Shown here: positions 9,516 through 39,555 of the stretch, one piece after another
Position numbering within the stretch: the first letter of the stretch is position 1
How the letters are laid out: every line of letters begins with the position of its first letter
The notes under the pieces: model-generated
Told to the model about the DNA's origin: nothing
The model's input: the letters and a program-made list of their open reading frames with translations, nothing else
Databases searched by the model: none
Made by a program: the position numbers and the translations under genes
Source of the DNA: a virus
DNA length: 40,521 bases
Direction: 5' to 3' (one strand)
IMG/VR virus record: IMGVR_UViG_3300042691_022286
Span: 1-40,521 of that record

Positions 9516-10088
9516 ATGAAAGAATCAAGCAAAGCAATGGAGCGTCGGTTTAAGTCCGAAAAATGTAGTCTTTTTTCTGACATATTCCAAGGCAAGGGAA
9601 TTGATATCGGTGCAGGCGACGACCTCATCAATGTTCCCGGCGTTCGCAGATTTGACATGGAGGACGGAGACGCAAACCATCTTGATCAATACTTCCCAGA
9701 AGAATCATTCGATTTCATCCATGCCTCGCAATGCCTGGAGCATATGCATGATCCGAAAGCTGCTCTTGATTCTTGGCTGAAGGTTCTTAAAAAAGGTGGA
9801 TACGCAGTTATTTCAATCCCATCTTGGGAACTCTACGAAGGAATGGTCTGGCCAAGCAGATTCAACCCGGACCACAAGTCAACATGGTCACTTTGGCAAG
9901 AAGGTTCTCCTGCGCCAATTCATGTTAAACTTCCAGAGTGGACTGGATATTTTTATGATTGCGATTTAATCTACTGCGACCTAATCGACACAAACTATAA
10001 TTACAAAATTGGAACATCCGTCGATCAGACATATCCATACGAGAATCGCGTGGAAGCATTCATTGAATTTGTTCTTCGTAAAAGGTAA
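9516..10088 (+). CDS. class I SAM-dependent methyltransferase
   Basis: The segment G-I-D-I-G-A-G-D-D (28-36) is the glycine-rich SAM-binding motif I. It is followed by V-R-R-F-D-M-E-D-G-D-A, motif II with the acidic ribose-binding residues, and then SFDFIHASQCLEHMHDP with C-L-E-H-M, the classical motif found in Methyltransf_11-type enzymes. L-K-K-G-G-Y-A-V-I-S-I-P is the post-motif strand. The substrate is unknown; the setting after four glycosyltransferase-like genes suggests sugar or glycan methylation. It is separated from the cassette by a 55-base gap with a promoter-like motif, so it may have its own transcript. Confidence 0.75.
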   Translation: MKESSKAMERRFKSEKCSLFSDIFQGKGIDIGAGDDLINVPGVRRFDMEDGDANHLDQYFPEESFDFIHASQCLEHMHDPKAALDSWLKVLKKGGYAVISIPSWELYEGMVWPSRFNPDHKSTWSLWQEGSPAPIHVKLPEWTGYFYDCDLIYCDLIDTNYNYKIGTSVDQTYPYENRVEAFIEFVLRKR

Positions 10089-10121
10089 ACACTACACTCG
10101 ATTATCTTATCATTTAAGATA

Positions 10122-10141
10122 ATTGTAGCATTCCAATATAG
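10122..10141 (+). promoter_or_regulatory. promoter-like repeat motif, copy 2
   Basis: ATTGTAGCA, 6 bases, TATAG, ending ccaatatag. It shares both blocks with the motif at 9464-9485 but has a spacer 2 bases shorter. It overlaps the 3' arm of the first hairpin of the non-coding region. If it were a promoter, a transcript would begin near 10141 and contain nearly all of the other stem-loops. Confidence 0.28.
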
Positions 10142-10529
10142 CTCCCGGCAGGCTTGAGGTTGGCGGCTAATTGAGACACTTCGCCTGTTGTGTAGATGAA
10201 GCGTCTCAACCCAATCAACTCCCGTATAGGAATCGGCAGTATGGCTATCTCGACATAATTCTGTTGTCTTTATCGGGCCGCACTAACACTCAATATACAC
10301 CCTCAACAGAACCTTCGCCCGTATCGCTACGGCGTGTATTCAAAGACCATTTTCCTGATGTTAGGAAAATGGTATCTGTGACTGGTTGGCATGGCTACAT
10401 CATTCCAGTCATGTGCGTTCTGCAACGGCAAGTAACCCCGCAGGATCGTTGCCGTGATTTCGGTCATATTTCGCCTACCGATACAGCATCTTTTTCGTGA
10501 TTCCTGTTGCCACCCTTTTGGATTCATGC

Positions 10530-10570
10530 AAAAGAAAAACCCGCCTTGATAGTAGCCATATCAAGACGGG
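10530..10570 (-). terminator. rho-independent terminator, minus strand
   Basis: On the minus strand a 12-pair stem (cccgtcttgata / tatcaaggcggg, one G-U pair) with a 7-base loop is followed at once by TTTTTCTTTT. On the + strand the same stem has a C/A mismatch and no T-run. This is a textbook intrinsic terminator for minus-strand transcription. Part of its stem and its loop can instead pair with 10603-10617, giving a competing 12-pair structure. Confidence 0.6.
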
Positions 10571-10623
10571 AATTTCTGTTAGGGAAATTTGTCCTATGAA
10601 TCTGGCTACGATTCAAGAAAGAT
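10530..10623 (-). ncRNA. candidate ~90-nt minus-strand small RNA
   Basis: A minus-strand promoter (TTGACA at 10657-10652, 16-base spacer, TATCTT at 10635-10630) would start RNA near 10623, and the intrinsic terminator ends it near 10530. The RNA would carry a 5' segment able to pair with its own terminator stem (10603-10617 with 10545-10558, 5 + 7 pairs), so it could be a free small RNA or the attenuated leader of a longer antisense RNA running through 10530-10090. No minus-strand protein gene is convincing here. Confidence 0.42.
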
Positions 10624-10629
10624 GCAAGC

Positions 10630-10657
10630 AAGATAATGGATTTTTCTTTTGTGTCAA
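10630..10657 (-). promoter_or_regulatory. sigma70-type promoter candidate, minus strand
   Basis: TTGACA at 10657-10652 matches the -35 consensus in all six positions. TATCTT at 10635-10630 matches the -10 in four of six, with a 16-base spacer. It points into the minus-strand terminator hairpin. A/T-rich DNA lies just upstream of the -35. A bare consensus match in A/T-rich DNA can be chance. Confidence 0.4.
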
Positions 10658-10696
10658 AATATTTTTTTGAAAAAACCATTTGACGATATTCGATCC

Positions 10697-10852
10697 ATGA
10701 TGGATTTGTCGCAACAGCACGGCGCACCATCTCCGAATGATGGCGACTCGCAGAAGTCAAAAGAATCTGCAAACAGGACGCAACAACAAGCCCAGCGTTC
10801 CGGGGCGATCAAACAACTTGCAGCTATCCAGCAATGGATGTGTCGCACTTGA
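10697..10852 (+). CDS. possible small Gln/Ser-rich protein (51 aa)
   Basis: An ORF beginning with two Met codons (ATGATGG) encodes a polar, Gln/Ser/Ala-rich peptide with a helix-like end (SGAIKQLAAIQQWM). Composition is similar to the Gln-rich virion-region proteins further right. There is no Shine-Dalgarno and no recognised family, and it could be an untranslated part of the capsid leader. The 85 bases between it and the capsid gene show nothing except an A-rich leader (aaaactactaaaATG). Confidence 0.35.
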   Translation: MMDLSQQHGAPSPNDGDSQKSKESANRTQQQAQRSGAIKQLAAIQQWMCRT

Positions 10853-10937
10853 ATGTCGCCCGAAGTTTTCTAAACGGAGGGTAGGTTCAAGCAGAACAAA
10901 ACCCAAACAACAACAATCAAAATAGAAAACTACTAAA

Positions 10938-12146
10938 ATGGCTAACGAATGTATCCCCTTGGCCGCGATCCAAAACTTCGCCTCCAAGGATGTCAACCGC
11001 ATCATCGGACAAATCGGTCGAGTTCTCGCCCGCAAGAGTCCCTATATCAACTCCATCGACGGCGGCACGCTCCCGAATGTTTCGGATGTCGTCCGCAGCG
11101 TCGTTGAGGAAATGGCAGTTCCTGCCGCTTCCCTCGCCGCTCCGACCTTCGTCAATGACACCACCCTTTGCGGCGTTGGTGCCACTCCCGACCAGGTTGG
11201 TTCTACGGAGTATCAGTTCCAACTCCAGACACTCCGTGGAGCCGGTCCCCGTGTTTGCGTCAAGCAAGCCCGCACCGCCTTCAAGGGTTCCTACCTCCAA
11301 GCTCAAGTTTCTCTCGAAAAGACGATCCTCCAGCTTATCAATGCTGACATCCGCTATCAATACCTGATCCAGTCCGGCATCAAGTATGTGGTCAACAGCA
11401 CCCAGTCGTTCTCGCAGAACCTGACTGGTGACATGCAGCAGATCAACACGCAGTTCGCGGCTGTCCTTCCCGACGCCCCGCTTAACTTCAAGACCCTCTA
11501 TCGCATTGGAACCTTCCTCCGCGAAGAGATGCTTGCAGAGCCTTTCGCGTCGAAAGATGGCGAGTTCTTCCAAGTCCTCGCTTCCGCCGACCAGATTGAG
11601 AACCTGCGCAACGATGCTGATGTCAAGGAAGACCTGCTCTACTTGACCGCTGGCAGCTTCAAGCTTGGTGAGGAGTCCATCTCCGGTTACCAGTTCATGG
11701 GCTATCGCGGGTTTGCCTTCGGCATCGACCAGCAGCCGCTCCGTGCGACCGGGTTCGATGGTTCCGGCAACCTGGTCCTTGTTAACCCCATCGTTTCGAC
11801 TGCCGTCACGAACGGATTCGCCCAGCGCCGCAACCCGGCTTGGGTGTCTGCCCCGTATGAAGTGGCATTCGTCATCGCTGGCGAGGCTTTCAAGCGCCTC
11901 ATTCCCGAGCAGTATGTTGGCGAGGGAACCTTCAAATTCGCCCCGCAACTCGCGATGGGTGAGCTTGAGTGGACCTATTTCCGCGACAACGATTGCAACC
12001 TGTATGGCGACTTCGGTCAGCACATCTACCAAGTCTCGCGTGCGATTCAGCCGATTCGCCCGCAGAACGTGTGCGCCATCGTCTACAAGCGTTGCCCGTT
12101 TGACGGCAATCCGCTTCCCTGCTCGACCTCATCGACTGGTCTGTAA
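10938..12146 (+). CDS. major capsid protein
   Basis: This 402-residue protein is placed as the main shell protein of the head. It sits downstream of the scaffold, is followed by a strong terminator-like hairpin, and has codon use unlike its neighbours (mostly C- or G-ending codons), typical of the most highly expressed phage gene. The sequence has a helical N-terminus, an extended charged middle, a long helix region (ASADQIENLRNDADVKEDLLYL) and a beta-rich C-terminal half (AMGELEWTYFRDNDCNLYGDFGQHIYQVSRAIQPI). It contains seven Cys (three in the last 30 residues), which is many for a capsid protein. No specific family is recognised by eye; an alternative is another abundant virion protein. 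Confidence 0.75.
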   Translation: MANECIPLAAIQNFASKDVNRIIGQIGRVLARKSPYINSIDGGTLPNVSDVVRSVVEEMAVPAASLAAPTFVNDTTLCGVGATPDQVGSTEYQFQLQTLRGAGPRVCVKQARTAFKGSYLQAQVSLEKTILQLINADIRYQYLIQSGIKYVVNSTQSFSQNLTGDMQQINTQFAAVLPDAPLNFKTLYRIGTFLREEMLAEPFASKDGEFFQVLASADQIENLRNDADVKEDLLYLTAGSFKLGEESISGYQFMGYRGFAFGIDQQPLRATGFDGSGNLVLVNPIVSTAVTNGFAQRRNPAWVSAPYEVAFVIAGEAFKRLIPEQYVGEGTFKFAPQLAMGELEWTYFRDNDCNLYGDFGQHIYQVSRAIQPIRPQNVCAIVYKRCPFDGNPLPCSTSSTGL

Positions 12147-12212: not shown

Positions 12213-13955
12213 ATGTCTAAAGTTAATTGGATAGCAACTGGTCCGTCTTGTTCAGCGCCATCTTGTGGATGCCTGCCCGGCTCTCAGTGTGATTGCTGTT
12301 GGCCAAACACAGGTGCTACTGGTGCATCTGGTGTTCAGGGCGCTACTGGTGTCCAAGGTGCAACAGGATTAACTGGAGCAACTGGTGCCGGAGCAACTGG
12401 CGCAACCGGTCCCGCTGGAGTTCAAGGTCCACAAGGATTTTCCGGATTGCCTGGAGGACAGGGAGCAACTGGCGCAACTGGCCCTGCTGGTGTAAATGGA
12501 CTTCCTGGAATACAGGGGGCAACTGGTCCCCAGGGCGCATCGGGGTCAGGTGCTACTGGGGCTACTGGGGCAACTGGAGCAACAGGATTAATCGGTTCTA
12601 CGGGTGCTACTGGTATTTTGGGGGCAACTGGCGCAACTGGTCCTGCTGGAATTACTGCGCCACTTTACCAAGCTACATATTATAAAAGCGCAAACCAAAA
12701 TCTAACGAATGGAAATACTGATATTACATTTGACCAAGATGCGGCTTGGAACAATGACAATGGATTAATTACACACACGGCTGGATCAACAGATTTTGTT
12801 GTAGTTCAAGCTGGACTTTATCAACTTGAGTTTAATCTTTCCGTCAATGCAAATGCGGCAACATGGAATACAAGTAATAGCAAAGTTGTCTCAATTGATA
12901 TTACTCGTTCTCCAAACGCAGAACAGGTTGTTATTGGTCAAACTGCTCTTACAGCAACAACTCAAAGCTACACGCAAAGCGTTGTTTCTACTTTCAAACT
13001 TGAGGTTGGAGATGTAATAAATCTTCGTCATTACGGAAACTTCGCAACAGCAACTCCATTTGTTTTAGGTGTTCAAAATACAATTGATCTTAATACTTGG
13101 TTCAGTTGGAGGTTGCTGAATTCTGGAACCCAAGGATTGACTGGATCGACCGGGGCTACAGGAGTAATTGGTTTGACAGGGGCAACTGGTCCTTCTGGAG
13201 GTCCAATCGGAGCAACGGGGGCAACCGGAGCTACAGGTTCTGCTGGTGTTAATGGGGCAACTGGAGCTACTGGTGTCGCTGGTGTTAATGGAGCAACTGG
13301 AGCCACGGGGGCTACTGGACCTTCTGGAACAAATGGTGCAACCGGCGCAACTGGCGCAACTGGACTTGGAACTACTGGAGCAACTGGGGCAACCGGAGCA
13401 ACGGGACCATCTGGATCTGCTGGAACCAATGGCGCGACTGGGGCTACAGGCGCAACTGGTGCGACCGGACTTGGTGCAACAGGTGCAACAGGTGCAACAG
13501 GGATTGGAACAGTAGGCGCCACGGGTGCAACTGGAGTGGCGCCAGCAAATGTTGTTACAACAGATACAGTTCAAACAATAACAGCAAACAAAACATTCGA
13601 TGGGAATGTTAAATTAAAAACTTTTACTGGAACAAGGCAAAATTCAACAATTTCTTCTGGAACCCTCACGCTTGATTTGAGCCTTGCCAATTTTTTCACA
13701 ACTACACTCAGTGCAAATGTTACTACGTTAACTCTTTCAAGTGTTCCTGTAAGTCCAAACCTTTCATCTATTGTTCTTCAAGTATTTTTTAATTCCAATA
13801 CTGTGTTTACAATAACTTGGCCGGCATCATTTAAGTGGGCTGGAGGAACAGGTCCAACACTTACTTGCTTGAATGGCAAGTATGATACTTTTTCGTTTCT
13901 TACATATGATGGAGGAACGACATGGTTTTCTTATACAATTGAGCAAAACCAATAA
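12213..13955 (+). CDS. collagen-like fibre protein with C1q/TNF-like and distal domains
   Basis: Domain order in 580 residues: a Cys-rich head ([19 protein letters not shown]); a Gly-X-Y collagen block at about 34-150, mostly GAT/GPA/GVQ; a beta-rich domain at about 150-300 ([12 protein letters not shown] ... [11 protein letters not shown] ... [16 protein letters not shown]) like the C1q/TNF jelly-roll that follows collagen in bacterial BclA-type proteins; a second GAT-rich collagen block at about 304-445; and a C-terminal domain with F-x-W-P-x-x-x-K-W-A-G-G-T and [11 protein letters not shown], common at phage fibre ends. Collagen repeats imply a trimeric rod. It probably acts as a head or tail fibre for host attachment. 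Confidence 0.8.
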
Positions 13956-38958: not shown

Positions 38959-39555
38959 ATGAAGTTTGAAGCGAAGTCAGTTGATCCATCGCTAATTCCG
39001 TTTAGTGACTGCGAGATTATCGGGGACCATCTGATTATACCTGTGGTTGATTATGGTGCCATGGAAGACCATTCGTTCCTTGTAGCACTTGGAAAACTGG
39101 TGGAAACTTTCCTCCGCTCAAAGTCGATTGGAGGAGTGTCCATTGCCGATGATGTCGAAAGGATGGTCTGTGAAAAAATTGGGTTGGATTGGGATAATCA
39201 TTGCGACTGGGTTCAGAGGGCATTGGATGAAGCGGATCGCAGCCTATCACAATCTGTGATACTGCGAGATGGACCAAGGCTATGGGCTGAATTCCACTTG
39301 TTTTCTTTAAGGAACAAAAACTGCCATGATTATGAATTTATCAAAAACTGGTTTGACAATTGGCAGGAATCAATTCCATGGAATGGTTGCCCGTGCCAAC
39401 AACATTTTGAAGATTATTGCAACCAGTTTCCTATTGATTATTCCAACTTGTGGAAATGGGGAGTTGACTTGCACAACAATGTCAATGAAAGAATCGGGAA
39501 ACCAACAATTTCACTTTCAGAAGCAGAGCAACTATGGACAAAAAGACTATTGTAA
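38959..39555 (+). CDS. hypothetical protein, weakly like Erv/ALR thiol-oxidase segment (198 aa)
   Basis: The C-terminal half reads F-I-K-N-W-F-D-N-W-Q-E-S-I-P-W-N-G-C-P-C-Q-Q-H-F ... N-L-W-K-W-G-V-D-L-H-N-N-V-N-E-R-I-G-K-P ... S-E-A-E-Q-L-W. The W-G-V-D-L-H-N-x-V-N-x-(R/K)-x-G-K-P block resembles the helix following the redox C-x-x-C of Erv1/ALR-type proteins, and in phages I have seen it with C-x-C-like pairs before it. Here the pair is C-P-C, so oxidase activity is doubtful. The N-terminal half is a mixed alpha/beta domain of unknown type. The A-rich leader (ataaataaat) before the ATG is typical of this genome. Confidence 0.45.
   Translation: MKFEAKSVDPSLIPFSDCEIIGDHLIIPVVDYGAMEDHSFLVALGKLVETFLRSKSIGGVSIADDVERMVCEKIGLDWDNHCDWVQRALDEADRSLSQSVILRDGPRLWAEFHLFSLRNKNCHDYEFIKNWFDNWQESIPWNGCPCQQHFEDYCNQFPIDYSNLWKWGVDLHNNVNERIGKPTISLSEAEQLWTKRLL

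Follow-up and report, generated by a model that had tools for sequence, protein, structure and literature searches.

What occupies the long gap in front of the capsid-like gene of this phage? The window analysed, the whole stretch of 40,521 nucleotides of the IMG/VR record IMGVR_UViG_3300042691_022286, contains an 849-base gap (positions 10089-10937) between the stop of a methyltransferase ORF (9516-10088) and a capsid-like ORF beginning at 10938. The original prediction placed here a large structured non-coding RNA, probably on the minus strand, similar to the GOLLD and ROOL RNAs of phages and matched to neither. The gap was found to consist of two parts, a minus-strand structured RNA whose extent, corrected from that first given, is about 10622 to about 10134, and a remainder that holds divergent promoter-like sites and the leader of the capsid-like gene.

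The region 10089-10640 folds better than every one of 100 dinucleotide shuffles on both strands, and more strongly on the minus (z -6.82) than on the plus strand (z -4.32). The ORFs inside the region (10171-10500 on the plus and 10327-10527 on the minus strand) carry in-frame stops in 21 of 21 homologues of type A, the type to which the RNA of the window belongs; the region is therefore non-coding, and a reading as coding sequence was rejected. About 40 distinct relatives with covarying helices were found in IMG/VR, and 40 sequences were left after removal of near-duplicates. The fold relative to shuffles, the unconserved ORFs and the extensive covariation establish a large structured non-coding RNA, as had been predicted. 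No family in Rfam 15 matched the window at gathering score, and the region gave only chance-level matches at E up to 10. The element is thus well supported as a real structured RNA family outside Rfam; the papers searched gave no account of it either, subscription journals being mostly outside that scope.

The strand was tested on stems picked by Watson-Crick majority alone, a choice that is neutral between strands, by counting cells that read as G-U on the minus strand against those that read as A-C on the minus strand (G-U on the plus). The ratio of minus-type to plus-type cells was 37:17 in type A, 18:2 in type B and 19:10 in the 5' domain. A covariance model, R1, scored 94.1 bits on the minus and 24.2 bits on the plus strand of the window; as R1 was built from minus-strand sequences including the window itself, this score is a consistency check. 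The wobble cells, the model and a conserved TTGACA promoter-like site show that the RNA is encoded on the minus strand, and a plus-strand RNA, with its weaker z, lower model score and contrary wobble evidence, was rejected. Two long imperfect stems, in which A.C mismatches on the plus strand were said to become G-U pairs on the minus strand, were both confirmed: at 10540-10570 the A.C is a U-G on the minus strand in 30 of 31 relatives, and in most relatives the stem at 10174-10206 occurs in a form that is Watson-Crick throughout.

The RNA is about 490 nt long (10134-10622, minus strand). Its 5' end near 10622 is inferred from the promoter-like site TTGACA-16-TATCTT (10630-10657, minus), whose -35 box is near-invariant in 34 aligned relatives, and its 3' end at about 10134 is the limit of conserved sequence; neither was mapped experimentally. 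All further parts lie on the minus strand. Hairpin H1 (10597-10615), supported by covariation, has the stem TGAATC/GATTCA and the loop GTAGCCA (10603-10609). Hairpin H2 (10540-10570), supported by covariation and a terminator scan, has a 12-bp stem, the shape of an intrinsic terminator and the loop TGGCTAC (10552-10558), which is the exact reverse complement of the H1 loop. The scan also detected the U-run TTTTTCTTTT behind H2 (10530-10539), so that the window meets the intrinsic-terminator criterion of a GC-rich hairpin with a U-run; two relatives, L136 and L214, lack the run and do not meet it. The hairpin P3 region (10495-10535) follows, where the window has an altered form of the common motif ATGAAGC..GCAGTTCCC. 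The 3' domain of type A (10134-10490) comprises about ten covarying helices, the final hairpin being that at 10174-10206. Direct repeats (GGAG... on the minus strand) at 10134-10149 and 10210-10225 flank this last hairpin; they co-vary among relatives and are unexplained.

The strongest feature, missed by the original prediction, is the pair of complementary loops of H1 and H2. Across the whole structure of the 5' domain (31 sequences), 94.4% of cells are paired, against 36-50% with the partners slid, and the covariation score is 0.333 against 0.131 in shuffles. In the loop-loop helix, for which fixed alignment columns were used, both sides have changed in 7 of 7 pairs and 96.2% of cells are paired (31 sequences); a scan blind to structure ranked this loop pair first. 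The loops stay complementary across more than 20 different sequences in related phages, and so do those of distant members whose stems differ. Of the 28 distinct loop pairs in a wider set, 27 are complementary throughout; when partners were permuted, the mean was 1.2 and the maximum 6. The loop words of its distant members (L136, L137, L082, L083, L214 and L169), and several loops not of 7 nt, were chosen for complementarity, so that the tally illustrates the pattern and does not test it. Sequence comparison thus shows that the two loops form a loop-loop (kissing) helix of 6-9 bp kept by compensatory change, the best-supported tertiary contact of the RNA; the sequence does not tell an intramolecular from an intermolecular contact. 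The pseudoknot first proposed, 10149-10153 with 10183-10187, is not supported: it has 5 pairs in the window, nearly all relatives retain only 3-4 of them, and no compensatory change is seen. Since H2 resembles a terminator in most members and not in L136 and L214, its conserved role is likely to be the loop contact, with termination as a possible second role. Identity is 0.46-0.50 in the loops and 0.93 in the H2 stem. Among close relatives the loops often remain the same or are exchanged as a unit, which makes recombination as likely as diversifying selection; a faster evolution of the loops under diversifying selection was not established.

The common 5' cassette precedes alternative 3' domains. 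In type A (20 sequences, 55 pairs) 29 of the 55 pairs have changed on both sides, and in type B (16 sequences, 72 pairs) 19 of the 72; the alignments used for the counts also served to predict both structures, so that the counts lean towards them. No sequence homology between the two 3' domains was detectable beyond a weak motif. In L002 (type B) and L004 (type A) the flanks are almost the same, whereas the 3' domains differ. An HNH-like gene begins directly behind the U-run of H2 in L059 and L006, replacing the 3' domain, and one of the same family lies 3' of the complete RNA in L117 and L134, so that genes of one HNH-like family adjoin the element in two contexts. One copy is present per matching record, apart from a record of 68,965 bases (L115, L122), which has a type B copy at one end and a type A copy at the other and is perhaps two strains joined in assembly.

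Of the 80 loci retained from a search with the capsid protein, about 20 have the whole element or a part of it upstream; most others have at that place only a leader of about 220-250 nt, or another gene, and many close relatives with the same capsid are without the RNA. Further relatives elsewhere were found by pattern scans and profiles, and several of the phages bearing the element have no recognisable capsid relative, and in others that relative is merely distant. At least three genomic contexts are represented among the copies of the RNA, one of them a tRNA neighbourhood. In L117-L134 it adjoins what we take to be a dCMP deaminase-like and a glycosyltransferase-like gene, the names having been read from translations and not from a database. 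In L169 the element sits behind tRNA-Gly and tRNA-Arg. About 0.8 kb there (L169 7085-7860, fold z -2.3) is without a convincing gene; it opens with an H1/H2/P3 cassette with complementary loops of 9 nt, is then unlike types A, B or C, and is possibly a further type of the family. Matches to the abiF RNA (RF03085) lie upstream of the element in L005 (4099-4135) and L007 (3951-3987). INPHARED gave no relative of the window region, of type B, of the L169 element or of the capsid, and PLSDB none of type B. In bacterial genomes the type B core had a single exact match, in Streptomyces, which the model did not confirm and which is taken as chance.

The remainder of the gap (10680-10937, plus strand) holds a conserved -35-like TTGACG at 10680, identified by alignment of relatives and with a -10 box that is weak in the window, and the capsid leader. 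A structured leader was rejected, as no excess folding relative to shuffles was found in 10700-10840 (z +0.2 on the plus and +0.8 on the minus strand). Neither Pfam nor PHROG nor INPHARED gave a match for the ORF at 10938. Among the top PDB fold matches of its predicted model (pLDDT 49, low confidence), almost all are phage capsids, the best with E 0.006; the capsid label is a fair guess, predicted from a weak fold match. A gene with collagen triple-helix repeats (12213-13955) lies right behind it, and an Erv1/Alr family thiol oxidase domain, here in a phage, is encoded at 38959-39555.

Several known systems were compared. The GOLLD RNA (RF02032) is likewise a large structured phage RNA with one conserved and one variable half and a covarying loop-loop contact. 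Members of GOLLD often lie near phage tRNA genes; here the relative in L169 has two tRNAs beside it, and no tRNA gene was found in the window. GOLLD differs in that its model gave no match, in that many of its members exceed 800 nt against about 490 nt here, and in that its shared part is the 3' part (PMC12286853), whereas the 5' part is shared in the new RNA. The ROOL RNA (RF03087) is of similar size class, and its kissing contact was first seen by covariation and later shown to form between molecules (PMC12286853); there is no model match and no shared sequence was detected. The silence of the GOLLD and ROOL models in eight records is weak evidence alone, as control genomes were also silent; the predicted resemblance without a match nevertheless held. 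The packaging RNA (pRNA) of phi29 also carries two hairpin loops that are complementary to each other, but it has no Rfam match here and differs in size, context and distribution. Intrinsic terminators and RNA attenuators share a promoter-proximal hairpin with a U-run; here, however, the loop of the terminator pairs with a loop upstream of it, and about 360 nt of conserved RNA domain then follow. A HEARO or IscB guide RNA (no Rfam match, HNH protein at only few loci) and a group I or II intron (no Rfam match) are not supported.

The explanation favoured, as somewhat more likely than not, is a stand-alone, phage-encoded, minus-strand structured RNA of about 490 nt from a family not in Rfam; its expression, its action in trans and any oligomerisation are inferred. 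Transcription would start from the promoter-like site at 10657-10630 and pass through H2 into the 3' domain, and the product, folded and stable, would act in trans. The contact between H1 and H2 may clamp the fold or may join monomers head to tail as in GOLLD and ROOL, oligomers being suggested by analogy only. The RNA may work like the large ornate phage RNAs without being a member of a described family. No minus-strand gene lies downstream of the RNA in the window, which makes a pure cis leader unlikely there. Against this explanation stand the many phages with the same capsid and no RNA, the terminator-like H2, because of which full-length transcription has to be assumed, and the lack of expression data.

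The rival that survives best is an attenuator, which remains possible. H1 and the terminator hairpin H2 would form a transcription switch, the loop contact setting stop or read-through into the large RNA, an HNH gene or the dCMP deaminase operon. In its favour are the strong terminator match of H2 with its U-run in the window, the recurrence of the U-run in the distant L082/L083 and L169, the cassette directly upstream of the HNH gene in L059/L006, and the downstream gene on the same strand in L117-L134. Against it, L136 and L214 retain the kissing loops without a proper U-run, no minus-strand gene follows the RNA in the window, the kissing contact does not obviously block formation of H2, and the 3' domain is itself strongly conserved. 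A bolder reading, considered unlikely, treats the loops as an intermolecular self-recognition code, by which the RNA of each phage would assemble only with its own kind and the 3' domain would be an exchangeable payload; the loop pair would diversify so that co-infecting relatives stay unmixed, as antisense loops do in plasmid incompatibility.

Two further rivals have very little support. For a packaging-type RNA, in which H1 and H2 loops would pair between molecules into a ring as in phi29 pRNA, speak the two different, mutually complementary hairpin loops and the adjoining capsid gene in the window; against it speak the absence of any Rfam match, pRNA included, the far larger size, the members far from capsid genes and the many related phages without the RNA. 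An equally improbable mobile or homing element, an intron-like or guide-like RNA spread by an HNH endonuclease, could draw on the same HNH family behind the RNA (L117/L134) and behind the H1/H2 leader (L059/L006) and on the swaps of types A and B between near-identical phages, but most copies have no HNH gene, the element is intergenic with no intron or HEARO match, and the link is accounted for just as well if a free-standing HNH gene has inserted at a conserved locus.

Only a few large ornate RNAs have been described from phages, and what they do is poorly understood. The present element adds to them a family in which the kissing loop covaries with unusual clarity, with a common 5' cassette, interchangeable 3' domains and at least three genomic settings. 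Its natural swaps of types A and B, its loop variants and its close relatives without the RNA offer ready comparisons for the study of function and assembly.
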